From: Crossiella sp. CA-258035
GTDB taxonomy: Bacteria > Actinomycetota > Actinomycetes > Mycobacteriales > Pseudonocardiaceae
DNA: 64,000 bases
Reading direction: 5' to 3'
Assembly (NCBI RefSeq): GCF_030064675.1
Contig: NZ_CP116413.1
Span: forward strand, 4,496,001 to 4,560,000
The position numbers were made by a program, and so were the translations under genes. The first letter of the stretch is position 1, and each line of letters begins with the position of its first letter. The notes under the pieces are model-generated. The model did not search any database and was not told the DNA's origin. It saw only the letters and a program-made list of their open reading frames with translations. Shown here one piece after another: positions 49,619 through 61,710 of this stretch.

Positions 49619-51166
49619 AGGACCGCCCGCGCGGGGACGAACTGCACGACTGGCGAGCAACCTGGCGCGTCGTCAGGGCCACCCCGCCTGCGCGGGGACG
49701 ACCCGACTGCCGACCAGTACTTCCTGACCAAGTCCGGACCAGCCCCGCCTGCGCGGGGACGAAATGCCGTGCCCGGCGGCGTGGTCGGAACGCGCCGGAC
49801 CACCCTCGCCTGCGCGGGGACGACAACCGGGCGCCGCACATCATCACGGCTGACCCGGGACCATCCCCGCCTGCGCGGGGACGACGGCAACAACCAACCG
49901 GCCGGCCAGCGCGGCGTGGGACCAGCCCCGCCTGCGCGGGGACGACGCGCGGTGCGGCGACGGCCCCGTGACCGACCTGGGACCACCCCGCCTGCGCGGG
50001 GACGACGACAGCAAGAACCCGGACGGGCCGAAGCTGGTGGGACCACCCCCGCTTGCGTGGGGACGACACTGACCCTGATCACCTACGGCCACCTCGCCCG
50101 GGACCACCCCCGCCTGCGCGGGGACGACTACGAGCGCGAGCAGGAAGCCGACTTCACCACCGGACCACCCCCGCCTGCGCGGGGACGACGCCAAGCGTAG
50201 GCGCGGCTCAGCACCGGGATGAGGACCATCCCCGCCTGCGCGGGGGCGACGGAGTACCGCAAGGCAGGTGAGCGGTGATGCGGGGACCATCCCCGCCTGC
50301 GCGGGGACGACAGCCCGGACGGCTCGACGTCCGGGCATCAGCTGGGGACCATCCCCGCCTGCGCGGGGACGACGGAGACTGAGGTCAACCCGGAAGGGTT
50401 CGCGGAGGACCATCCCCGCCTGCGCGGGGACGACAGCCGGGGCTCGATCCGGTTGCGCCCGGCCTCCGGACCATCCCCGCCTGCACGGGGACGACATACA
50501 CCAGCGCGGCGCACAGCGCCGCGTCGGCGGACCATACCCGCCTGCGCGGGGACGACCCACTCGGCAGGCCCGGCGGGGAGTGTGGTGTGGGACCATCCCC
50601 GCCTGCGCGGGGACGACCTGCCGGGAATGACGACGTACCCGGCGTAGGACGGACCATCCCCGCCTGCGCGGGGACGACGCGTCGAGCATGGCCCGGATGC
50701 GGTGTTGCCCGGGACCATCCCCGCCTGCGCGGGGACGACTCCAGAAAGGACCGTTCCGTGTCGCGCTCGTCCGGACCATCCCCGCCTGCGCGGGGACGAC
50801 GCTGCGGAGAAGACGGCGCGGGAGCAGGAGGAGGGACCATCCCCGCCTGCGCGGGGACGACATTGACCCGAAGTACCGCGAGCTGCGCCAGGCCGGACCA
50901 TCCCCGCCTGCGCGGGGACGACGGTGGGGTGCATGTGGTGTGGCACCCCATGGCCGGACCATCCCCGCCTGCGCGGGGACGACCTGAAGTGCACCAGCGA
51001 CGAGGTACTGCGGTGGGGACCATCCCCGCCTGCGCGGGGACGACGGCAAACCGATCGCCAGGGTGAACTCCTGCGGGGGACCATCCCCGCCTGCGCGGGG
51101 ACGACGGCAAACCGATCGCCAGGGTGAACTCCTGCGGGGGACCATCCCCGCCTGCGCGGGGACGAC
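49619..51166 (-). CRISPR. CRISPR array B, main type I-E array, 26 repeats
   Basis: 26 repeats of 28 nt (minus-strand start GTCGTCCCCGCGC, end GGCGGGGATGGTCC) every 61 bp; the left-most (49619) is degenerate and two others are 27 nt. The leader adjoins 51167, next to cas2, so the array is transcribed leftward and the left end is oldest. Older repeats end GGGTGGTCC, the younger ones (from 50223 to the right) GGATGGTCC. The two newest complete spacers, at 51045-51077 and 51106-51138, are identical. The two trailer-end spacers are shared with array A. Long antisense frames of PRAGGDGP-type repeats are artefacts. Confidence 0.98.
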
Positions 51167-51231
51167 ACTTCCTGACCTGCGGTTCTGTGGGTGCTGGAGC
51201 GGTTTTTCATTCACTTTCGTCGGGCTGTGGT
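51167..51231 (-). promoter_or_regulatory. Leader of array B
   Basis: 65 bp between cas2 and the first repeat, containing GAAAGTGAATGAAAAACCG and CACCCACAGAACCGC on the minus strand, richer in A than the surroundings. It continues into the 3' end of cas2. It matches the array A leader. Confidence 0.75.
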
Positions 51232-51591
51232 TCATCGTCGTCCGAAGCGGCGGCGTTTGCTGGCATCGCTCCACCTCGGTCTACCGGCCACCCCCGTCTG
51301 CGTAGCCGGCCCTGTTCCTGGAGCGGGGCGGAGCATCAGGTTGATGCCCTCGAAGTCCACCGGGACCCAGTTGTGCTCGTGGACTGTGAACGCCAGCCCC
51401 TGCTCGTTGTCAGCCTGGTGCACCATGATCGCCCGCCCGGTGCGCACCATCTCCACCACCCGCACCCACAACAGCTCACGCACCCGCCTGGTGGTGCGCC
51501 CGACAAAGACCCCCGGCGAGATCTCCAGCAGCCACCGCGTCAAGTGCCCGCGCAACCCGACCGGGCAAGCCGCGACCACGATCACCGTCAC
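51232..51591 (-). CDS. cas2: CRISPR-associated endoribonuclease Cas2 (type I-E)
   Basis: A 119-aa Cas2e: MTVIVVAACPVGLRGHLTRW followed by LLEISPGVFVGRTTRRVREL, then NWVPVDFEGINLMLRP near the C-terminus. It is the structural core of the Cas1-Cas2 integrase that inserts spacers at the leader. The ATG overlaps the cas1 stop. The last 20 residues (basic, SDASKRRRFGRR) differ in frame from the truncated copy near array A. Confidence 0.96.
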   Translation of the reverse strand: MTVIVVAACPVGLRGHLTRWLLEISPGVFVGRTTRRVRELLWVRVVEMVRTGRAIMVHQADNEQGLAFTVHEHNWVPVDFEGINLMLRPAPGTGPATQTGVAGRPRWSDASKRRRFGRR

Positions 51592-52559
51592 AACTCCTCC
51601 CCATAGGCCACCCCGCCGGGCACGACGCGGCCGTTGTCGTCCCAGAGCATCACCACGTCCCCACCGGCGAAGGCCGCATCGTCGAGGGCCTCCGGTCCGT
51701 ACTCCACCAGCTCCTCCTCCGGGGTCAGCAGCGTCTTGATGTCGCGCACGCAGGACTCCAGGAACGCCCCGCCGCGCATCCGGTCCCGGATCGCGCGGCG
51801 GGTGGCCGAGCCGATGTCAGCGACCTCGGCGGCGGCGATGTCGAAGGCCACCGGGATGCTGACCGCGGCTTTGTAGAGGTCGGCGATGTCGTAGACGAAG
51901 GACTTGACGTGTCCGGTGTGGACGAACCCGAGCCCGGGGGAACAGCCCAGGGCCACGATCACCGCGTGCACCACCCCGTAGAGGCTGGTGTGCGCTGCGG
52001 AGAGTGCCTGGTTGACCGGGGTGCCTGCCTGGAAGTCAGCCGGGTCGTAGTCGCGGCGCTGCCAGTCGATCCCGACCCGGGCGGCATGCTCGCGGTAGGC
52101 CCGCCGGACGCGGGCGCCTTCCCGGCCACGCAGCTGCTGCATGGTCAGCCCGCTGGTGTCCTCGCCGGGGAAGCGCATCGCATACATCGCGCGGGCGACC
52201 TTCAACCGGGAGGTCCGGTTGGACACCAGCGCCGCTTGGGCCTGCAGCAGGCTGGTGGAGCGGGCCAGGGTGCGGCCGTGGGCGTCGTAGCGCACCCCGT
52301 GCTCGCCCACCCACACCGCCGTGGACCCGCTTTCCCCGAGCAGCACCATGGCTTGCTGGCTCACCGTGGTACCGGGGCCCAGCAGCAGCGCGCCAAGGGT
52401 GGCCGCCGGGATGTGCACGGTGCCGCGGGCATCGGTGGCGGTGATCGCGTTGTCCTCCCGGTGCACCACGCAGTGCTCCAGGTACAGAAACGACAGCCGG
52501 TCCTGGGCGCGGTGCAGCTGGGAAAGCGGGACCGGCTTGGCACCGGGGAGGTCAGCCAC
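51588..52559 (-). CDS. cas1: CRISPR integrase Cas1 (type I-E)
   Basis: A 323-aa Cas1e. Metal-binding catalytic residues are visible: Glu in LRGREGARVRRAY, His in FVHTGHVKSFVYD and Asp in the same segment (YDIADLYK). The N-terminal beta domain begins LSFLYLEHCVVHRE. GTG 52559 overlaps the end of cas6e by 8 nt. With Cas2 it adds spacers to array B and possibly array A. Confidence 0.97.
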   Translation of the reverse strand: MADLPGAKPVPLSQLHRAQDRLSFLYLEHCVVHREDNAITATDARGTVHIPAATLGALLLGPGTTVSQQAMVLLGESGSTAVWVGEHGVRYDAHGRTLARSTSLLQAQAALVSNRTSRLKVARAMYAMRFPGEDTSGLTMQQLRGREGARVRRAYREHAARVGIDWQRRDYDPADFQAGTPVNQALSAAHTSLYGVVHAVIVALGCSPGLGFVHTGHVKSFVYDIADLYKAAVSIPVAFDIAAAEVADIGSATRRAIRDRMRGGAFLESCVRDIKTLLTPEEELVEYGPEALDDAAFAGGDVVMLWDDNGRVVPGGVAYGEEL

Positions 52560-53220
52560 GGCGCAGCGGGGCCAGGGTGAGCAGGCCGCAGCCATAGCCC
52601 TTGGCCGGGCCGATGCCGCCGATCAGGCTCGCCCGCAACCGATCGGGATCGGTGACCTCCAGCCGGCCCTCGAACACCACAGTGGACAGCGAGACCGTGG
52701 CGGACTTGCGGTCGAAACGCACCACCTCCCGTCCGCGGACGGCCACGTCTGGCTCCTTGTGCTCCCCGGCGGGGATGGTGAAGCCGAACTTCTCGGTGCG
52801 GGTGAGCAGCCAGTCAGTTTGCTGGGCGACGGTGACGTGGTGGAACCGTTGGGACCGCTGGGCATCGGGGGCTTTGCGGCTGCTGTGCACGGGGTTGGCC
52901 TTGAGCCGGAAGCCCCACACCTGCCCGGTGGCCAGGCGGGTGAGCACGGGCTGGTACTCGCGGGTGTCCCAGCCGGTGGTCGTCGGCCAGCCCGCCTGCT
53001 CGACCAGGTGGGTCAGATCGGGACGAGTCGGGCTGACGACATAGAGCTGGACCTGGTGCTCGCTCTGATCCAACCTCCACAGCACCCGGCCTTCCGCAAC
53101 GGCAGGAGTGCTCTGGGGTGGGAATGCGGCTTGGACGGCACCGTGGAGTTTGTGCGGGGAGGCCAGTAGCGCGCGGGCGCCGCGGCGGGCGGGGTTGAGG
53201 GCGCAGCGGGTGAAATACAT
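52552..53220 (-). CDS. cas6e: crRNA endoribonuclease Cas6e (CasE)
   Basis: A 222-aa RAMP protein with two ferredoxin-like folds: MYFTRCALNPARRGARALLA, then SPHKLHGAV with the candidate catalytic His, and the C-terminal G-loop GIGPAKGYGCGLLTLAPL. It cuts 3' of the repeat stem, leaving a 5' handle ending GGTCC. The ATGA overlap with cas5e shows co-translation. Confidence 0.95.
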   Translation of the reverse strand: MYFTRCALNPARRGARALLASPHKLHGAVQAAFPPQSTPAVAEGRVLWRLDQSEHQVQLYVVSPTRPDLTHLVEQAGWPTTTGWDTREYQPVLTRLATGQVWGFRLKANPVHSSRKAPDAQRSQRFHHVTVAQQTDWLLTRTEKFGFTIPAGEHKEPDVAVRGREVVRFDRKSATVSLSTVVFEGRLEVTDPDRLRASLIGGIGPAKGYGCGLLTLAPLRRG

Positions 53221-53954
53221 CAGATCGGTTCCTCGAAGACGGCCATCGGATCATGCCCGCCCCCGGCGAACGCGGCCGCGGGGATGGGCGTGGGGGAGCG
53301 GTGCAGCGGGTTGGGGACGGTGACCTGGGAGCTCAGCACGGTGCGCCAGTCGTACTGGCGGTGCCGGGGATCGAAGCTGACCGGCTCGTCGCGCACCAGC
53401 TCGGCGCGGGGTTCGGTGGCCGGGCAGTCGGCCACGGTGTCCAAGGTGACCATCGGGGCACGGTGCTGCTTCTGCACCCACGGTGAGGCCAGCCACGGCG
53501 CTTCGGCCAGCACCTGGGCAAGGTCGCCGTCGTGCATCCCGTGCAGCAGCACCCCGGCGGGCGGGCAGGACCGGCGTCCCAGGTACAGCGGGAACGCCGG
53601 TGCCCGCAACGCCTGCTCCACGGTTTCCAGAAGTTGGTCCGGGCCGTGCACGGCCACGGCGAAGACCGCGTCGGCGAGGTAGAAGCGGTAGGACAGCGGC
53701 ATGGAGATCTGCCCGTCCCGGCTGCGGGCGGTCTGGAAGTCCCGCTCCAGCCGGCCGGGTTGTTCGATGCGGACCCCGATGCGCAGATCCAGCAGCTCTT
53801 CCAGGGGGTCGGTGCGGCGGCGGCCGGTGGCGGCGGCCAGCAGCCCGAGCACGCCGCTGCGGCTGGGGGCGCGGTCGGTGTTGCGGCGGGTGAAGCGGCT
53901 GCTGGTGCCCCAGGACTGCAACGGCGCGGCCAGCCGCAGCAGCAGGCAGCTCAC
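53220..53954 (-). CDS. cas5e: Cascade subunit Cas5e (CasD)
   Basis: A 244-aa Cas5 RAMP: LLLRLAAPLQSWGTSSRFTR is the family N-terminus, followed by RRNTDRAPSRSGVLGLLAAA. It binds the 5' handle of the crRNA. The start is GTG 53954, overlapping the cas7e stop (GTGA). Confidence 0.95.
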   Translation of the reverse strand: MSCLLLRLAAPLQSWGTSSRFTRRNTDRAPSRSGVLGLLAAATGRRRTDPLEELLDLRIGVRIEQPGRLERDFQTARSRDGQISMPLSYRFYLADAVFAVAVHGPDQLLETVEQALRAPAFPLYLGRRSCPPAGVLLHGMHDGDLAQVLAEAPWLASPWVQKQHRAPMVTLDTVADCPATEPRAELVRDEPVSFDPRHRQYDWRTVLSSQVTVPNPLHRSPTPIPAAAFAGGGHDPMAVFEEPI

Positions 53955-55090
53955 GAGGAGGCCGCCAGCCGCTGCCCGAGCAGTTCGCCGACCGCGCGGA
54001 CGGCGGGGTCGAAGGTGGTGTGGGTGGCCAGCTCGGCCAGCGGCGCGATCTTCTTCTCCCCGATGCCGAAAGTCCACGCTGCGACGGGGGTTTCGTCGAA
54101 GGCGGTGTGGAGTTCGCGGGCGTGCTCGGCCAGCTTGCCGATCGCGGCGTGCACCCGGCCGTGCTCGGCGTTGTCCTCGACGACTTCCTCAAACGCGCCG
54201 ACGAGGTTGATCGGCTGGCGTTGGCGGACGATCAGTAGCACGGCATCGGGCAGGGTGCGGTTGGCGAAGGTGTTCTGCTTGCCCGAGGGCATGCTGGTGA
54301 TGAACGCCCGGGTGAAGGCCTCGGCCGCGCGCACCGCGGCGGTGGCATCACCGAGGTTGTCGCACAGGGCGTCGAGGTCGAGGGCGGCGTAGCGGTAGAG
54401 GGTGGAGGAGTTGAACTCCACCGTGCCGATCATCCCCGCCCCGGCGTCTTCGTCGTCGTTGTTCTTCTTGCTGTCATCCACCGCGGTGAAGTAGTCGTAC
54501 TCGTTGTCCACCGCGTGCACGCTCAGGGCGTGGGCGACCTGGACGGCGGCCTCGACGTTGAGGTCGGTGGCCGAGGCGACCATCCGCCCGAACAGCGCGA
54601 TGTCCACCGAGTGCTCGCGGTCGGCGCGGGCCTTGGCCTCCTGCTTGTTGATGCTCACCTTCCCGTCGCCGGCCTCGGTGGCGGCGGTGACGGCCAGCTC
54701 GGCGAGGGACTCGATCTGGCGGTGGCTGAGGAAGAGCAGAAATTCCGACTCCGGTGCCGCCCCGTCCTTGCGGGCGGCCTTGGTCTTGATGCCGATCGCG
54801 GTGAGCACTTCACCTGCGAGGTCTGCGGCCCGCTCGGCCAGTGCGGGTGCTTGCCGGGTGATCTCGGTGGCGAGGACCTCCACGACCTGCCGGGTGCGCA
54901 TGCCCAGCTCGGAGCGATCCAGGTGCGCGGGGAAGGCCTCGCGGGTGGCGCGTTTCCACGCCTGGCTGGAGACCCGGGCGCGGCGACGGCCGCCGTAGAC
55001 GGCGGTCTTGGGGCTGCCGGTGTCGTCACGGTTGATGTTGCTCGGCGGCACGCTCTGGATGATGTGCACGTCGAGAATGGTGCGTGGCAT
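53951..55090 (-). CDS. cas7e: Cascade backbone subunit Cas7e (CasC/Cse4)
   Basis: A 379-aa backbone protein: ILDVHIIQSVPPSNINRDDT, VYGGRRRARVSSQAWKRATR and the C-terminal TLPDAVLLIVRQRQPINLVG. Six copies coat the crRNA in Cascade. ATG start, 19 nt after cse2. Confidence 0.97.
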   Translation of the reverse strand: MPRTILDVHIIQSVPPSNINRDDTGSPKTAVYGGRRRARVSSQAWKRATREAFPAHLDRSELGMRTRQVVEVLATEITRQAPALAERAADLAGEVLTAIGIKTKAARKDGAAPESEFLLFLSHRQIESLAELAVTAATEAGDGKVSINKQEAKARADREHSVDIALFGRMVASATDLNVEAAVQVAHALSVHAVDNEYDYFTAVDDSKKNNDDEDAGAGMIGTVEFNSSTLYRYAALDLDALCDNLGDATAAVRAAEAFTRAFITSMPSGKQNTFANRTLPDAVLLIVRQRQPINLVGAFEEVVEDNAEHGRVHAAIGKLAEHARELHTAFDETPVAAWTFGIGEKKIAPLAELATHTTFDPAVRAVGELLGQRLAASS

Positions 55091-55109
55091 AGGGATTGTC
55101 CCCTTGGTC

Positions 55110-55763
55110 TCAGGCGGTGGGCTTGTCCACCGCGGTCTCGGTCGGCTCGGTGGCGGTGGCGGTGGTGGCCGTGGTGTGGGTGCGGTAGAAGTCCCGGCCC
55201 CACCGCAGGCGCACGCCGGCGGCGCCGCCGGGGCGTTGCCAGCGCAGCAGGTCCTCGGCCAGCTGCCCGTAGTCCACGGGGATGTCCTGGCCGCGCAGCA
55301 GTTGCACGAGCCCGCGCAGGTGGTGCACCAACTCGCTATAGCTGTCGGAGGTGCCCAAGGTGAGGAAACGGCGCAGCACCGGTGCGGGCGGGTCGGTCGG
55401 CTCTTGGGGGTGCAGCCGCCGTACCGCCGCTCCCAGGCCGTGACCGCGCTGGTGCATCCGCTTGCCGCGGGACTGCTGATGGGTGGCGTAGAGGGTCAGC
55501 GCGGTGTGCGCGGCGATCTCTCCAGGCGTGGGTTTCTCGCCGGGGTTGGGGCCGGTGAAGACGGGGGAGAGGGTGTAGCGGTGGATGTCGGCCACGCTGC
55601 CAGCGGGTGTGCCGACCGCCCGGCGCAGCCGGGCCAGGGCGGCGACCTCGGCGGAGTGGTTGGCCAGCACCCCCTGCTGCAGGCTCCGGATGCGACGGTC
55701 GACCTCCGCGCCGACCGCGCCCAGCTCGGGAGTGACTGTGGGGGTGGTGGTGTGGGTGGTCAT
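55110..55763 (-). CDS. cse2: Cascade small subunit Cse2 (CasB, Cas11e)
   Basis: A 217-aa helical protein; characteristic parts are LARLRRAVGTPAG near residue 45, TLYATHQQSRGKRMHQRGHG, and LLRGQDIPVDYGQLAEDLLR with WGRDFY at the end. It stabilises the displaced strand in the R-loop. ATG 55763 overlaps the cas8e stop. The Thr-rich tail is unusual. Confidence 0.93.
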   Translation of the reverse strand: MTTHTTTPTVTPELGAVGAEVDRRIRSLQQGVLANHSAEVAALARLRRAVGTPAGSVADIHRYTLSPVFTGPNPGEKPTPGEIAAHTALTLYATHQQSRGKRMHQRGHGLGAAVRRLHPQEPTDPPAPVLRRFLTLGTSDSYSELVHHLRGLVQLLRGQDIPVDYGQLAEDLLRWQRPGGAAGVRLRWGRDFYRTHTTATTATATEPTETAVDKPTA

Positions 55764-57394
55764 GAGGCCACCTCGATGGTTTGGGCCGCCAGCGGCAGGG
55801 CGGTGTGGAGGTCGCGCCGGAATCGCTTGTCGGCCAACGGTGTGTTCATCAGGCGCGCATCGACGGTGCGGCCGCGCCACGCCGTCATCGGCGCCCGCGC
55901 CAGCAAATCCGCGGCCACCGCCTGCGCGCACTGGCGTGCTTGACGCTGCCAGGCCTGGTGGGCGGCCATGGGATCGGTGGTGGCGTCCAGGTCACGCAGC
56001 CACGCGCGGAACAGCGGGTCCAGCGCGGCGAAAACCTGTTCCCGGGCGCGGGTGACGGGTCCGTCGCGTTCGTCGCGGCCGCACCCGGCCGCGGCGGCGA
56101 GGTTGCCCGCCAAGCGTCCCACCGCTTTCGCGGTCTCCTCCGCGGCCTGCACGCAGGCCACCGCGGTGGCGGCCAGGTCGGTGGCCTCGCGGTGCAGCAG
56201 GATGGCGTGCAGGGGGAGTTGGTCGTCGAGGATGTCCTCGGTGGTGGAGCTTTGGGCGCCGTAAGTCATGCCGATGGTGTGCAGCCGCACCGGCAGATCC
56301 GGGTCGATCTCGTTGCCCAGCCGGGCGATCCACTCCAGCACCTGCGGAGTCAACGCCGCGGCCGCATCCTGGCCTTGGGGTCGTTGGGCGGCGGGCAGCA
56401 GCGATGCCAGGCCGCGCCAGACCGCCCGGTCCGGCAGGTGCTCCCGCGGCATGTACACCAGGGGCAGGCCGTGTTTTTTCTCCTGCGGGGTGCTGCGCCG
56501 CCAGGCGGTGTGCGGCTCGTGGTGGTGCTTGTTTTGCGGGGTCAGGCGCTCGCCGTTGCAGATGAGCACGCCGGTGACCGCGGAGGTGGTGTAGGAGAGC
56601 AGGATCCGGCGGCTTTGCCAGGTGTAGAGGTCCACCCGCCCGCACGGTGCCCGCCCGCCGTCGAGTTCTTCCCCGACTCCGACCGGGTCGCGTTCCCACG
56701 CCGGCAGGTCGGTTTCCGGGGTGGCGGTGAGGCCGTGCTGGTCGTAGGCGATGAGGTTGAGCAGCAACGTCTCCCGCAACGTCGCACCCTCGGGAATCAC
56801 GCCACCGAGGTGGCCGGACCAGGCGGTGCCGATCGGGTAGCCCTTGCCGCCCTTGACCCGCTTGTCCCCGACCGCGCCGGACTTGATCCCGGAGGGGTCG
56901 AAGGCCTGGCAGTGCACCAGCCACCGCGCCGCCTCGGCGAAGGACAACGACAGGATCGCACCGAGCCGGTTGGTGAAGAACGGGTGGCCGTTGGGCACAT
57001 CGGCGATGAGCTTGCCCAGCTCGGAGACCTCGCCCTTGGCGGTGTGCAACCCGGCGACCTGGAAGAACGGGGCCTGCGGGGAGAGCAGATCGAACCGGTC
57101 GCGGTGCTGGTGCAGATATTCACCGATCTGCTGGGCGGGTAGTTCGGGCTGCTGCCACAGCTGTTCCCAGGCGTCAAGGTCGCGCGGACCGTCGACAGCG
57201 CGGTGCAAGACCGCCAGCAGCAGCCTGGTGAGGGCGAAGACCTGGGTGGGAACATCGCCGAGTACCGCGGCGAGCTCGTGGGCACGCCTGAATACCTCGG
57301 TCAGGGACAGCTCTTCCCGTTGCCCGGTGTTGGTGCGCACGGAAAGCCAGGGTTCGTCGATCAGGTTGTATGACAACGGGTTAGACCCGTTCAT
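55760..57394 (-). CDS. cas8e: Cascade large subunit Cas8e (Cse1, CasA)
   Basis: A 544-aa large subunit: SYNLIDEPWLSVRTNTGQRE, LLAVLHRAVDGPRDLDAWEQ, RFDLLSPQAPFFQVAGL and the PAM-reading region GHPFFTNR…GGKGYPIGTAWSGHLGG. It recognises the PAM and recruits Cas3. It is downstream of the mini-CRISPR and the small membrane protein, so its transcription likely depends on the promoter at 57897-57925. Confidence 0.96.
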   Translation of the reverse strand: MNGSNPLSYNLIDEPWLSVRTNTGQREELSLTEVFRRAHELAAVLGDVPTQVFALTRLLLAVLHRAVDGPRDLDAWEQLWQQPELPAQQIGEYLHQHRDRFDLLSPQAPFFQVAGLHTAKGEVSELGKLIADVPNGHPFFTNRLGAILSLSFAEAARWLVHCQAFDPSGIKSGAVGDKRVKGGKGYPIGTAWSGHLGGVIPEGATLRETLLLNLIAYDQHGLTATPETDLPAWERDPVGVGEELDGGRAPCGRVDLYTWQSRRILLSYTTSAVTGVLICNGERLTPQNKHHHEPHTAWRRSTPQEKKHGLPLVYMPREHLPDRAVWRGLASLLPAAQRPQGQDAAAALTPQVLEWIARLGNEIDPDLPVRLHTIGMTYGAQSSTTEDILDDQLPLHAILLHREATDLAATAVACVQAAEETAKAVGRLAGNLAAAAGCGRDERDGPVTRAREQVFAALDPLFRAWLRDLDATTDPMAAHQAWQRQARQCAQAVAADLLARAPMTAWRGRTVDARLMNTPLADKRFRRDLHTALPLAAQTIEVAS

Positions 57395-57414
57395 GGGTGC
57401 ATCCTTTGGCTGTC

Positions 57415-57660
57415 CTACTCGGGCTTTTGTCGAAGCAACCTGTCTAGTTGTTTGGTCAACTCAATGACCGTGATGACGAATGCGCTTAGTCCGGCACCCG
57501 TAGTGGCCAGAAAGCGGCCGGTGGGGCTGAGGGTCCCCTCAAAACCCACCCAGGTTGCTGCGGCTGCCACGCCCGCGACAAGTAGAGAGCAGGGCACCGT
57601 GACGATCAAAACAATCAGCCAGTGTGTCAGAAACTGCTGTTCATTCGGACTTCGTGGCAT
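57415..57660 (-). CDS. 81-aa two-helix membrane protein inside the cas operon
   Basis: MPRSPNEQQFLTHWLIVLIV continues TVPCSLLVAGVAAAA; a second helix is FLATTGAGLSAFVITVIEL, followed by a short basic tail (TKQLDRLLRQKPE). AGAAGG lies 10 nt before ATG 57660. It sits 20 nt ahead of cas8e and behind the mini-CRISPR, so it is co-transcribed with Cascade. No known Cas family fits. Possible roles are an abortive or toxin-like membrane effector or a chance insertion. Confidence 0.6.
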   Translation of the reverse strand: MPRSPNEQQFLTHWLIVLIVTVPCSLLVAGVAAAATWVGFEGTLSPTGRFLATTGAGLSAFVITVIELTKQLDRLLRQKPE

Positions 57661-57777
57661 CTCGGATTGCCTTCTCTGGCCGCGACCTCCCTGCTCGTAT
57701 AATCGCTGATTGCGGGAGTGTCGTCTGTTGATAGAGCTGAAGGTCGGTCGAGGCTGCCCCGCTTGCACTCCAGGGAA

Positions 57778-57866
57778 CTTGGCACCCCGCATTAGCGGGG
57801 ACAACACAACAAGGTCACGTGCTGGTCCTCAATGCACCTGGATCAACTTCGCCGGGCGAAGACAAC
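57778..57866 (-). ncRNA. Degenerate mini-CRISPR (CreR/CreA-like guide RNA candidate)
   Basis: On the minus strand, GTTGTCTTCGCCCGGCGAAG leads into TTGATCC (repeat-like 1, 57866-57840), then a 34-nt pseudo-spacer (57839-57806), then GTTGTCCCCGCTAATGCGGG ending GTGCC (repeat-like 2 from 57805). Both keep the type I-E repeat layout: GTYGT, a 6-bp stem, then a 7-nt handle. The first stem has changed compensatorily (CTTCGC/GCGAAG instead of CCCCGC/GCGGGG). The repeat starts are exactly 61 bp apart, the array period. The pseudo-spacer seed GGTGCATTGAGGACCAG matches the promoter at 57900-57916. Cas6e could process it into a guide that represses the Cascade operon. Confidence 0.75.
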
Positions 57867-57896
57867 GAGTTGGCGTGACGTTTTCGACCTGTCGCC

Positions 57897-57925
57897 ATAC
57901 TGGTCCTCAAAGCACCCTTCGTCAA
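57897..57925 (-). promoter_or_regulatory. Cascade-operon promoter with embedded pseudo-protospacer
   Basis: Minus strand: -35 TTGACG (57925-57920), 17-bp spacer, -10 CAGTAT (57902-57897). AAG at 57919-57917 directly precedes GGTGCTTTGAGGACCAG (57916-57900), which equals the mini-CRISPR pseudo-spacer except at position 6. AAG is a canonical type I-E PAM, and position 6 is one of the flipped-out bases that Cascade does not read. A bound Cascade would cover the -10 and start site. Confidence 0.7.
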
Positions 57926-58005
57926 GTTGGCTCGCGACTTCTATGTGTATATCCCCGTCAGGAGTTTAGTTGTTTGAGGAACTAGTTGAAGCTGCTCAAG
58001 CATTT

Positions 58006-60795
58006 TTACGGATCATGCCGCTTGTGGATCAATCCTCGTCGCGGATCGTAGTTCAGGGTGAAGGCGGGCTCGCCGTGCCGCAGCACGGCCGTGCGGTGCT
58101 CGTCGAGGACAAGCACCAGCTGCCCTTTGAGCAGCGGGGCGAGCTGGAAGCTGGGGATGTAGTTGGACTCCACAGCGGTGATCACCGCGTCGAGGACACC
58201 GGGATGGCTCAGCGCCAAGGGCAGTCGCAGCGAGCACGCCGCGATCACCGCCGCCTGCTGCGGTGGCACCGCCAGGTCAGTGGGAACAGGTTCACCGCCG
58301 CCGCGAGCGATCCATGCCGGGGTCAGCAGGCCACCGGCGGAATCGCGTTGCACGACAAGAACTTCCAGGGACTCGGCGCCGTCACGAACCTGCGCCAGAC
58401 CGGTGTGATCATCGTCGGCGTCACCGACACCGGCCCGCACCCACCCGATCAGCGAGGTGCCCGTGGGCGGGCCGAGCCGGAAGTCCTGCGCCGCCTCCAC
58501 GCGGCGAACCTCAGTCACCGCGGCCTGTTCGGCGGCAGCGAGCATGTGCTCCTGCCAGGCAGCCGGGCCCAGTGGCTGTTCGCCGTAGGCCTGCTGCACC
58601 AGCGGGGAGATGTCGCGAGGCAGCATGATCTCCGGCCTACCGGTCAGCAGTGCGGCGGCGCGCAGCAAGGTGTACTCGCCGTAGACCCGCCGGGACCCCG
58701 CCACCGCCCGCACTGGTGCGGCGCTCCAGTCGAGCACCCCGGTCAGCGCGCAACGCGCCTGCCGCAACGGGGCAGGCCGATCGCGGGGGTGACGGTGCAG
58801 CCGGCCCAGGCGTTGCAACACCAGGTCCATCGGCGCCAGGTCGGTGACCATGAGGTCGAAGTCCACGTCCAGGGACTGCTCCACCACCTGCGAGGCCACC
58901 ACGATGTGCCGAAGCGGACGGTCACCGTCGGGGCCGAAGCGGTGCAGCAGGCCCTGGTCGATGCGGGCGCGGTCGCAGGCCAGGAACCGGGAGTGGTTGA
59001 TCGTGACCTGCTCGGCGCCGAACTCCTCCTCCAAACGCTGCGCGGTCTCCTGCACCCGGGCGACGGTGTTGCGCACCACCACCGCGCACCCGCCCTGGGC
59101 CAGGTGCTCACGCAGGTAGGCCACCAGCGTGTCCAGGTCATCCTCAAGATGATCCAGGGCCACGGTGTTGTCGCCGCCGTCGGCGGGCACGGTGAGCGGG
59201 GGCAGACCGCCGGAGCTGGCCAGCAGCGGATAGCCCATGTCGGTGGCTGCCGCGGGGTGGCTCTGGTTGTCATAGGCAGCCAGCAACTGCGCCCGCCGGG
59301 AGGTGGGCAAAGTAGCTGACAGCAGGACCACCGGAACCCGGTAGGCGCCCAGCCATTCCAGCACTCGGAGCAGGTACTGCGACATGAACACGTCGTAGGC
59401 GTGCACCTCATCGATGATCACGACCTTGCCCGCCAGCCCCAGGTGCCGCAGCATCAAGTGCCTGCTTTTCAACCCGGCGAACAGGATCTGGTCGATCGTG
59501 CCCACCACGAAGCAGGCCAGCACACCCTTCTTGCGGCCGCGCAGCCACTGGTGCGCCACCAGCGCGCCGCCGTCGTGCTCCTCGCCGATGCTGGCGAAGT
59601 ACCCGGCCCGCACCAGCCCGGCGAACTCCTCGTTCGAGCTGGCCTTGCCGTGGGCCAGCGTCACGCTCACCCTGCTGCCGGTGCGAGGCAGGCGCTCCAG
59701 CCAGGCCCGCACCCGGGAGAACATCGCATCGGTGCTTGCCTGGGTCGGCAACGCCACGAAACAGCCCCCCGCACCGGAGCGGGCGGCCAGAACCTCCGCA
59801 GCCAGCAACGCCGCCTCGGTCTTGCCGTTGCCCATCGGCGCCTCAATGATCAGCAACCCGGGTTGTTGCTGTCTGCGGGCCAGCTCGACAGCGGCCACCT
59901 GCACCCGGCGCGCCGGAGTGTTCGGGCGGTCGAATCGCTGCTGGAACAACAACTCCGCGCTCGTGCTGGCCAGCTCCGCAGTCCACGGCGCGGGCAGGTC
60001 CAACTTCTGCCACGCGTGCTCCAGCCGCACCACGGTGTCCAGACAGCGGGGCGGCTCGTGGGCGCGCAGCAACGGGAACAGCTCGGCGTTGGAGGCGATC
60101 CAGTCGGCCACGATCACCAGACCGGTCAGCAACACCTGGCTGGGCACGCTCAGCCGCACCTCCCGCCACCGGGTCCAGTCGATGCCCGCATCGGCCCGTT
60201 CCAGGAAGTGCTCCCGTGCCTGCTGCCACACCCCGGTACCGCGCAGTTCCGGGTGCTGGCGCACGAGCTGCAGTTGGCTGTCCTCGGGCGGCACACCGTG
60301 GTGACTGCCCACGATCGCGGCCAGCTGGGCGGCGATGCCCCGCCGGGGAAGGTCATGCCGGCCTGCCAGCCACTCCTGAACCGCGGCATGTCCCACCAAG
60401 GCGTGGGTGAGCGCGCCGCGTTGGGGGTGGTGGGCCAGCGCGGGGGAGGCGTTGAGGCCCGTATCGCGCATGCGGTCGGCCAGGGCGGGGACCTGGACCG
60501 CGAAGGCTGGGCTGGTTTTGCCGACATCGTGGGCACGGGCCAGCCAGTCCAGCAGCGCCCGCACATCCTCGGCACCGCACTGCGTATCGCGTGCCACGGT
60601 GTCGAGGATCTGGTGGGGTACCCAGCTTTCCGCCAGGCGGCGGGCTACCGCGCCGGTGTCGTCGAGGTGCTGGTGCAGGGGCAGCCAGTGGGTGAGCGCG
60701 CCGTGTTCGTCGCGCACTGATTTGGCCCACACCGCGGGCCATTGGAGCTCGGCAGGTGGTGGCGGGTCGTTGGTGGGCAGGAGGGTGGGGGACAC
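58006..60795 (-). CDS. cas3: CRISPR nuclease-helicase Cas3 (type I-E)
   Basis: A 929-aa HD nuclease plus superfamily 2 helicase. HD domain: HQHLDDTG and LARAHDVGKTSPAF (about residues 83-96), later GSHHGVPP. Helicase: PMGNGKTEAALLAAE (about 319-333), IIDEVHAYD (DEVH, about 458-466), LLSATLPTSR, and motif VI QRLGRLHRH. It degrades DNA marked by Cascade. The next cas gene lies 346 nt downstream across the mini-CRISPR, so Cas3 and Cascade are separately controlled. Confidence 0.97.
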   Translation of the reverse strand: MSPTLLPTNDPPPPAELQWPAVWAKSVRDEHGALTHWLPLHQHLDDTGAVARRLAESWVPHQILDTVARDTQCGAEDVRALLDWLARAHDVGKTSPAFAVQVPALADRMRDTGLNASPALAHHPQRGALTHALVGHAAVQEWLAGRHDLPRRGIAAQLAAIVGSHHGVPPEDSQLQLVRQHPELRGTGVWQQAREHFLERADAGIDWTRWREVRLSVPSQVLLTGLVIVADWIASNAELFPLLRAHEPPRCLDTVVRLEHAWQKLDLPAPWTAELASTSAELLFQQRFDRPNTPARRVQVAAVELARRQQQPGLLIIEAPMGNGKTEAALLAAEVLAARSGAGGCFVALPTQASTDAMFSRVRAWLERLPRTGSRVSVTLAHGKASSNEEFAGLVRAGYFASIGEEHDGGALVAHQWLRGRKKGVLACFVVGTIDQILFAGLKSRHLMLRHLGLAGKVVIIDEVHAYDVFMSQYLLRVLEWLGAYRVPVVLLSATLPTSRRAQLLAAYDNQSHPAAATDMGYPLLASSGGLPPLTVPADGGDNTVALDHLEDDLDTLVAYLREHLAQGGCAVVVRNTVARVQETAQRLEEEFGAEQVTINHSRFLACDRARIDQGLLHRFGPDGDRPLRHIVVASQVVEQSLDVDFDLMVTDLAPMDLVLQRLGRLHRHPRDRPAPLRQARCALTGVLDWSAAPVRAVAGSRRVYGEYTLLRAAALLTGRPEIMLPRDISPLVQQAYGEQPLGPAAWQEHMLAAAEQAAVTEVRRVEAAQDFRLGPPTGTSLIGWVRAGVGDADDDHTGLAQVRDGAESLEVLVVQRDSAGGLLTPAWIARGGGEPVPTDLAVPPQQAAVIAACSLRLPLALSHPGVLDAVITAVESNYIPSFQLAPLLKGQLVLVLDEHRTAVLRHGEPAFTLNYDPRRGLIHKRHDP

Positions 60796-61029
60796 GCCGG
60801 TGTGTAGGTGGAATGCGGTGCCTCGTTAGCCGTCTCGATACCGATTCCCACGATGGGGTTGCTACCGAAGGGTTTTCCTGCGCTGGCTTGTGTCGTGGCG
60901 GTAACGCGCGTGCTGAAGACGGTCCAGCGGTCGATGACCGCGGGCGCTCTGTGTATTCGCTGCAAAGGTGACAGGTCGCTGTATCCAGAGTGAACGGGCT
61001 TCCGGCTCGAAGGAACGGTCTCTGGTTGG

Positions 61030-61710
61030 GGTCGAGCCCCGCATGCGCGGGGACGACGCCGGGTCCTCATGGATCGGCCGGCCGGAGTCGGGACCACCCC
61101 CGCCTGCGCGGGGACGACGCGCTACCCGGCAACGCCCGGCTGGCTGAGCAGGGACCACCCCCGCCTGCGCGGGGACGACGGCAACTACCGCATGTCCGGG
61201 CTGGTCGGCGCGGGACCACCCCCGCCTGCGCGGGGACGACCCTCGCCGGGCGTGCGGCGCTTACGGCGAGCCAGGACCACCCCCGCCTGCGCGGGGACGA
61301 CCGGTCGAGGTGGACCAGCCGCCCGGGGCAGGACGGACCACCCCGCCTGCGCGGGGACGACACACAACGGGACCGATCTCGTCCATCAATCCTCGGACCA
61401 CCCCCGCCTGCGCGGGGACGACCGACTGCGGAACCCGGGATATCCGGCGAGATAGGGACCACCCCGCCTGCGCGGGGACGACTTCGGGACCGGTGGGACG
61501 CTGTCTCAGCTGATTGGACCACCCCCGCCTGCGCGGGGACGACTGGATGGCCAGCGCCGTCCGGCCCGCGCTGCGCGGACCACCCCCGCCTGCGCGGGGA
61601 CGACATGTTCAACCCGACCGTTCTCGCGGCAAAGGCGGACCACCCCCGCCTGCGCGGGGACGACCCGGCTATGGCTCTGCGCAGCCTGCATTCCACGGGA
61701 CCACCCGGGT
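61030..61710 (-). CRISPR. CRISPR array C, 11 repeats, leader end truncated
   Basis: Repeats at 61030 (degenerate), 61091, 61152, 61213, 61274, 61335, 61395, 61456, 61516, 61577 and 61637, period 60-61 bp, with a partial twelfth at 61698. Repeats carry the older GGGTGGTCC end; three-nucleotide variants and 27-nt forms occur. Orientation is as in arrays A and B. The degenerate repeat is on the left (trailer) end, while the right end breaks off inside a repeat, so the leader seems lost. No spacer is shared with arrays A or B by eye. Confidence 0.96.

Follow-up and report, generated by a model that had tools for sequence, protein, structure and literature searches.

The gap between cas3 and cas8e in the type I-E locus of Crossiella sp. 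CA-258035 contains a mini-CRISPR that resembles CreR in its anatomy, with a pseudo-spacer set between two degenerate repeats within the cas locus, and that is very probably a CreR-type regulatory element which heads the Cascade operon and would autorepress its own promoter. A preliminary description of the window (the whole stretch of 64,000 nt analysed here) had proposed that Cascade levels are set by feedback through such a guide, and both the co-variation of guide and target in related loci and the fit of the PAM argue for that reading.

The minus strand of the window carries a complete type I-E set with CRISPR arrays on both sides, arranged as follows in the order of transcription.

61020-61664, minus strand: second CRISPR array, upstream of cas3.
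58006-60795, minus strand: cas3, with Cas3 domains, upstream of the mini-CRISPR unit.
57415-57660, minus strand: gene for an 81-aa membrane protein with a two-helix model, 20 nt before cas8e.
55760-57394, minus strand: cas8e (cse1), the first downstream Cascade gene (PF09481, E 4.7e-120; TIGR02547).
51232-55931, minus strand: cse2, cas7, cas5e, cas6e, cas1e and cas2e, type I-E genes.
49623-51170, minus strand: CRISPR array with repeat GTCGTCCCCGCGCAGGCGGGGATGGTCC, crRNA sense minus as judged from the form of the repeat.

The minus strand is presumably the crRNA sense, an assignment made from what we take to be the usual form of type I-E repeats. The cas3-cas8e gap is 611 nt long and has a GC content of 0.56, versus ~0.70 in the cas genes. 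In the sense of transcription it contains the target, a degenerate repeat, the pseudo-spacer, a second degenerate repeat and the 81-aa gene, which lies between the mini-CRISPR and cas8e and had no place in the preliminary description. No Rfam family matched the window when it was scanned at gathering thresholds. The elements of the unit and of the region that it appears to address are these.

57920-57925, minus strand: putative -35 hexamer TTGACG, 5/6 to consensus.
57917-57919, minus strand: PAM AAG adjoining the target, read from the sequence.
57900-57916, minus strand: target (protospacer) of the guide, 16/17 match, between the putative -35 and -10 hexamers and overlapping the -10.
57897-57902, minus strand: putative -10 hexamer CAGTAT, weak, 3/6 to consensus.
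57839-57866, minus strand: psiR1, first degenerate repeat, stem compensatorily changed, 8-nt handle TTGATCCA at 57846-57839.
57806-57838, minus strand: psiS, pseudo-spacer of canonical length, its first 17 nt matching the target in the putative promoter.
57778-57805, minus strand: psiR2, second degenerate repeat, stem at 57800-57785, 61 nt from psiR1.

The two hairpins that had been described are present on the minus strand as CTTCGC-CCG-GCGAAG (57861-57847) and CCCCGC-TAAT-GCGGGG (57800-57785), and their stems begin exactly 61 nt from each other, which is the period usual in the window's true arrays. The first hairpin has T-A at two places where the array stem has C-G, the compensatory change noted previously, and the handle (57846-57839) compares with ATGGTCC+N in the array repeat. 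A single-strand RNA fold of the unit is not stronger than that of shuffled sequences (z -0.49). The pseudo-spacer sequence GGTGCATTGAGGACCAG (57838-57822) and the target GGTGCTTTGAGGACCAG (57916-57900) agree at 16 of 17 positions, with the sole mismatch at position 6 and AAG at 57919-57917, exactly as first reported, and the match is lost past position 17. When 1500 gaps of 611 nt were simulated by a first-order Markov model, the best direct 17-mer identity never exceeded 15, a value reached in 21 simulations, and 16 was never seen. The complementarity is partial, covers a seed of positions 1-5 and 7-11, adjoins a PAM and lies in the region upstream of cas genes, as in CreR. An ordinary CRISPR array was considered and rejected, given that the repeats are degenerate and that the 9.17-Mb genome has a single copy of the seed-plus-PAM pattern AANGGTGCNTTGAG, located at the unit's own target. 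The target may lie in a cas promoter: it is upstream of cas8e and between TTGACG and CAGTAT, but the boxes are weak and a sigma-70 scan of 57380-58020 returned no promoter-like site, the TTGACG hexamer included.

A DNA search for the element in 390 genomes of the source's family found its own copy only, and related loci were therefore located through their gene neighbourhood. Relatives of cas8e were assembled from an initial 21 loci plus the loci of further genomes, the weakest matches being left out, and their upstream regions were fetched; regions upstream of cas3 come from Pseudonocardiaceae only, with other families represented there only through the initial 21-locus set. A detector based on hairpins called numerous false pairs and overlooked the stem of L002, so a handle rule took its place, consisting of the handle xT(G/C)xxCCx, the PAM AAx and ten seed positions, 1-5 and 7-11. 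The 142 loci with a known cas3 end, after removal of duplicates, have a cas3-cas8e spacing of <120 nt in 93 cases and more in 49, among which L026 and L057 are probably mis-called overlaps (spacing -15 and -38). Dropped before this count were five loci in which cas8e was not placed (L088, L090, L093, L096, L182) and thirteen without a cas3 end (L005, L027, L028, L051, L069, L094, L102, L123, L124, L141, L162, L163, L169); nine of these thirteen were viewed by eye and seven entered the 113-region test described below, and none reached at least 9/10.

The rule was formed on the first 17 complete gaps (the truncated L005 being left out), 11 of which score 10/10, and when applied unchanged to 32 further gaps, some of them relatives of the first 17 though with changed guides, it found 10/10 in nine, giving 20/49 in total. 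In a swap control on the 49 gaps, 3 of 2352 pairs reached 10/10, two of them between the sister loci L086 and L087. The best score is 9/10 in nine gaps, some by chance, and 20 of the 49, including the probable mis-calls L026 and L057, have no match of at least 9/10. All ten gaps of another I-E clade (L181 and L183-L191), at ~320-540 nt, are without a guide by this rule. Where cas3 and cas8e overlap, the unit may sit upstream of cas3. Fifty-nine such regions were tried, two without a recognised cas3, and 6 of the remaining 57 have a match at 10/10 (swapped pairs, 11/3192), with the target on the opposite strand in two of the six (L008 and L234); 42 of the 57 gave nothing. A further test required the target to lie on the guide's strand, 40-150 nt upstream of it. 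In this test, 113 regions (57 from upstream of cas3, the 49 gaps and seven with an unknown cas3 end, L005, L069, L102, L141, L162, L163 and L169) yielded 24 at 10/10, 12 at 9/10, one of which is an array-repeat artefact, and three at 8; swapped guides gave 1 at 10/10 and 9 at 9/10 in 4480 trials. This geometry was derived from the first 17 gaps, which are included, and 21 of the 35 regions kept lie outside them; not every one of the 35 pairs is independent, as some are sister loci. The strict rule undercounts, as L231 and L171 score 8/10 with 5/5 at positions 13-17, and L155 has, by eye, a 10/10 core beside GAC. Guide matches in L006 and U_L247 were rejected as array repeats, that in L193 looks like chance and that in L158 is ambiguous. 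The L006 locus, from Actinophytocola xinjiangensis (L006 5250-6000), has a cas3-cas8e gap containing a near-perfect array of four repeats, with no guide that matches a promoter. Two genomes of the same genus with a close cas8e (G001, G002) have overlapping cas3 and cas8e genes with neither gap nor unit, suggesting that the element is gained or lost readily, and a draft genome of the same species as the window genome (G004) gave no cas8e match, so the type I-E locus may vary within the species.

Identity between guide and target over the 35 pairs is 94-100% at positions 1-5, 23% at position 6, 100% at 7-8, 80% at 9, 94-100% at 10-11 and 17% at 12, followed by 80, 69, 60, 69 and 54% at 13-17, 20% at 18, 40 and 46% at 19-20 and 17-37% at 21-32; in the choice of pairs, positions 6 and 12-17 served only to break ties and 18-32 were not used. 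In the 24 pairs at 10/10 alone, positions 13-17 match in 17, 15, 12, 13 and 11 pairs, and position 18 in 5. Cascade leaves every sixth base unread when it reads a target, and the background identity at positions 6, 12 and 18 is, to judge from these alignments, the footprint of a Cascade that reads in six-base steps. An excerpt of PMC8501985 gives the same rule for CreA, in which positions 1-5 and 7-11 are used and 6 and 12 are free.

The proposal that AAG is the PAM fits the related loci. AAN adjoins all 35 kept targets, in which AA is set by the rule and the third base, left free, is C in 20, G in 10, T in 5 and A in 0, and 5′-AAN-3′ is the motif used by the Streptomyces avermitilis type I-E system according to an excerpt of the review PMC12231136. 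Two array queries against phages returned no protospacer usable for PAM derivation. The phage matches included a stretch of Streptomyces phage Piccadilly (OL455886.1, ~34.6-34.9 kb; L249 660-970) with five type I-E-like repeats at a ~61-nt period and no annotated genes, which the window's array matched in 16 phage records from one host; this is a phage-borne mini-CRISPR that possibly serves as an RNA anti-CRISPR or as an array against rivals.

The preliminary description named as a check that pseudo-spacer and target should co-vary across related actinomycetes, and they do: in addition to the 24 of 113 regions at 10/10 and the footprint, guide and target change together at positions 1, 3 and 11 between L156 and L157, at positions 8 and 10 between L021 and L139, and at position 10 among L084, L086 and L172. 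Homologues that keep the hairpins and lose the seed match, the opposite outcome, are also on record, to the extent that part of the gaps was read by eye: 35 regions keep the match, but L154 retains the hairpins and guide with a target that lacks one base and so is out of register, and L126 and L217 retain a repeat-like hairpin with no matched guide.

The order of elements suggests that a single promoter would drive a leader with psiR1-psiS-psiR2, followed by the gene for the small membrane protein and by cas8e with the other Cascade genes. Cas6e would be expected to cut both hairpins and so release a crRNA-like RNA, and Cascade loaded with this guide would recognise AAG and 17 nt in the putative promoter, with positions 6 and 12 unread, and block transcription. 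Since the match ends at position 17, no recruitment of Cas3 is expected, and the chromosome should escape cleavage. As the guide, the membrane protein and Cascade would all come from the blocked promoter, the loop would be closed and negative, and expression should rise when crRNAs are abundant or when an anti-CRISPR takes Cascade away. Assignment to CreR is well supported, at the level of the class and from the anatomy that the window's unit shows, with repression the function that this class membership would predict. The same transcript probably also carries the membrane-protein gene, and the output of the unit may therefore exceed Cas feedback.

The length of the guide falls into two classes. 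Measured from the guide start, the second stem begins at 25-27 nt in 18 regions and at 37-40 nt in 15; the remaining two of the 35 (L082 and L091) show the short distance, and no region has a distance of 28-36 nt. The window's guide has the canonical length; in the window's arrays, 10 of 14 exact repeats give 37 nt. The classes differ by ~12 nt; one Cas7 step spans six bases, and 12 nt correspond to two Cas7 steps. By eye, the gaps of L082 and L091 contain a transposase-like ORF between the guide region and cas8e, with the 10/10 pair kept. Orientation varies with family. All 12 Micromonosporaceae guides run against cas8e, with the target between the guide and cas8e, and these units are, on sequence grounds, plain CreR. 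The 20 Pseudonocardiaceae guides divide into ten in cas sense and ten antisense. A cas-sense unit between cas3 and cas8e is present in the window, in L053 and, by a relaxed score, in L067.

The gene that follows the guide in the window raises a further possibility. The model of its product has two helices, residues 5-39 and 46-78 (mean pLDDT 79.4), and ORFs with two hydrophobic segments are found downstream of psiR2, on the strand of the guide, in the window, L002, L067, L069 and, by eye, L053. A profile built from these five seeds gave 15 matches in 14 of 386 family genomes, made up of four seeds, five directly upstream of cas3 (G240, G066, G149, G162, G072) and six elsewhere or doubtful; nine of the 15 are beside type I-E genes, four of these nine being the seeds themselves. 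Iteration on the fetched upstream regions, which carries a risk of drift, added loci to give 17 with the protein: the window, L002, L003, L005 (a remnant), L020, L053, L067, L069, L211, L213, L214, L217, L222, L224, L226, L228 and L231. Doubtful candidates in L223, L232 and L234 were left out. By eye, L002, L053, L067, L069, L211, L213, L214 and L224 have a GC-rich inverted repeat after psiR2 and before the membrane-protein gene, perhaps a terminator or attenuator that separates guide from protein output; it is not evident, by eye, in the window.

These observations make it plausible, if somewhat short of probable, that the unit is a CrePA-like guarded toxin-antitoxin, with the guide as antitoxin and the small membrane protein as candidate toxin. 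Cascade with its guide would shut the promoter, loss of Cascade, for example to an anti-CRISPR, would free the protein and halt the cell, and Cas feedback would be secondary or additional. Consistent with this, a guide is present in 13 of the 17 protein loci, 11 by the 9/10 rule of the 113-region test, which left the strand of the guide relative to the protein free, and the other two (L231 and L067) through relaxed scores of 13 and 12 counted on the protein's strand only (null maximum 12, reached in 2 of 1500). All 11 guides are on the strand of the protein and upstream of it, and L002 keeps this order though its unit runs against cas8e. All ten cas-sense Pseudonocardiaceae guides are accompanied by the protein, and one of the ten antisense guides by a weak candidate (L223). 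The gene has a GC content of 0.57 versus the ~0.70 of the cas genes, and its product belongs to no recognised family: none reached cut-off in Pfam or NCBIfam, PHROGs and PADLOC gave no convincing match, and tblastn against plasmids gave none. Several observations point the other way. The family is weakly conserved, with 19-25% identity to the window's protein, and the count becomes 9 of 11 when it is limited to loci scoring <1e-4 in the first profile round, that is, without L003, L005, L222, L226 and L228, which were weak in that round, and L020, placed by eye. L005, L069, L217 and L222 carry the protein (a remnant in L005) with no significant guide, even by the relaxed score. There is no profile match at the 12 Micromonosporaceae guide loci, the cas-sense guide of L007 (Glycomyces) is also without the protein, and the two-segment ORF in L095 is unrelated and is not on the strand of its guide. 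As the gene ends 20 nt before cas8e in the window, the cas genes probably share its promoter. A composite of the two readings is a tentative option which we hold at rather less than even: a type I-E guarded membrane toxin in which one autorepressed promoter drives guide, protein and, here, Cascade, with guide lengths tuned to Cas7 steps.

Two other explanations were weighed against the CreR assignment. The two direct repeats might be protein-binding sites or a regulatory duplication at the DNA level, as guide and target are close together and share a strand in every one of the 20 gap matches at 10/10, scored with strand free, even if L008 and L234 have them on opposite strands upstream of cas3 and the 113-region test imposed a single strand; but the sequence differs from clade to clade under PAM and handle constraints, the period of six is specific to reading by Cascade and a binding site has no reason to lie directly after a repeat hairpin, and we regard this as very improbable. 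That the unit is what remains of an ordinary array after decay, now without function and with a self match that arose by chance or was acquired once, which would accord with the degenerate repeats and with the same-genus genomes that have no unit, is equally hard to credit, because a dead remnant would not co-vary and yet 35 regions keep the seed-target match while their sequences change, with identity at background at 6, 12 and 18.

Autorepression by CreR has been described for type I-E (PMC13131331, excerpt), and the mechanism proposed here is therefore not new in kind. As excerpted, PMC13131331, PMC12737573 and PMC12948488 describe CreR of types I-B, I-E and V-A as a mini-CRISPR RNA partly complementary to a cas promoter that uses its own effector as repressor. 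The window shares these features and differs in that its guide is in the leader of the transcript that is putatively repressed, with a membrane-protein gene between guide and cas8e. CreTA, in which the CreA guide is paired with the RNA toxin CreT, a small tRNA-sequestering RNA that has rare codons and a strong ribosome site (e.g. in the type I-B system of Halobacterium hubeiense), differs in that the partner in the window is a protein gene in a type I-E system; by eye, no CreT-like RNA was recognised between promoter and guide. In CrePA, as proposed for the window, a crRNA-like guide controls the promoter of a protein gene, but CreP is typically a KilA-N protein that acts on FtsZ (PMC12737573, excerpt), whereas the window has an 81-aa membrane protein with no known domain; a KilA-N identity was rejected, with no match above threshold in Pfam, PHROGs, NCBIfam or PADLOC. 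The scaRNA of Francisella novicida, used by Cas9, is likewise a degenerate-repeat RNA that represses transcription through a short match, with a type II effector and with a lipoprotein operon rather than cas genes as target (PMC9458426, excerpt). Among the titles listed in a search of the open-licence literature, none concerns CreR in actinomycetes or a guide-linked membrane protein, and the word CreR is absent from the actinomycete CRISPR review PMC12231136. Neither the two pseudo-spacer lengths ~12 nt apart nor the guide-linked membrane-protein gene was seen in the open-licence papers searched.

The 35 pairs, which are not all independent, provide broad comparative evidence that type I-E systems of actinomycetes use Cascade to repress promoters, and the every-sixth-base signature measures the functional match as ~17 nt. 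They also supply many natural test cases, two separate classes of guide length, and a family of linked proteins that is relevant to the question, raised in an excerpt of a 2025 review (PMC12737573), of whether CrePA-like systems exist in other CRISPR types and act on other cellular targets. The small membrane protein is possibly a fail-safe against viruses that disable CRISPR. If the composite reading is correct, an anti-CRISPR would at once raise the Cas supply and release a membrane-damaging protein, and relatives with short guides would have natural regulatory Cascades with two fewer Cas7 subunits. More speculatively, cas expression held down by such guides might contribute to the weak native type I-E activity in these hosts.
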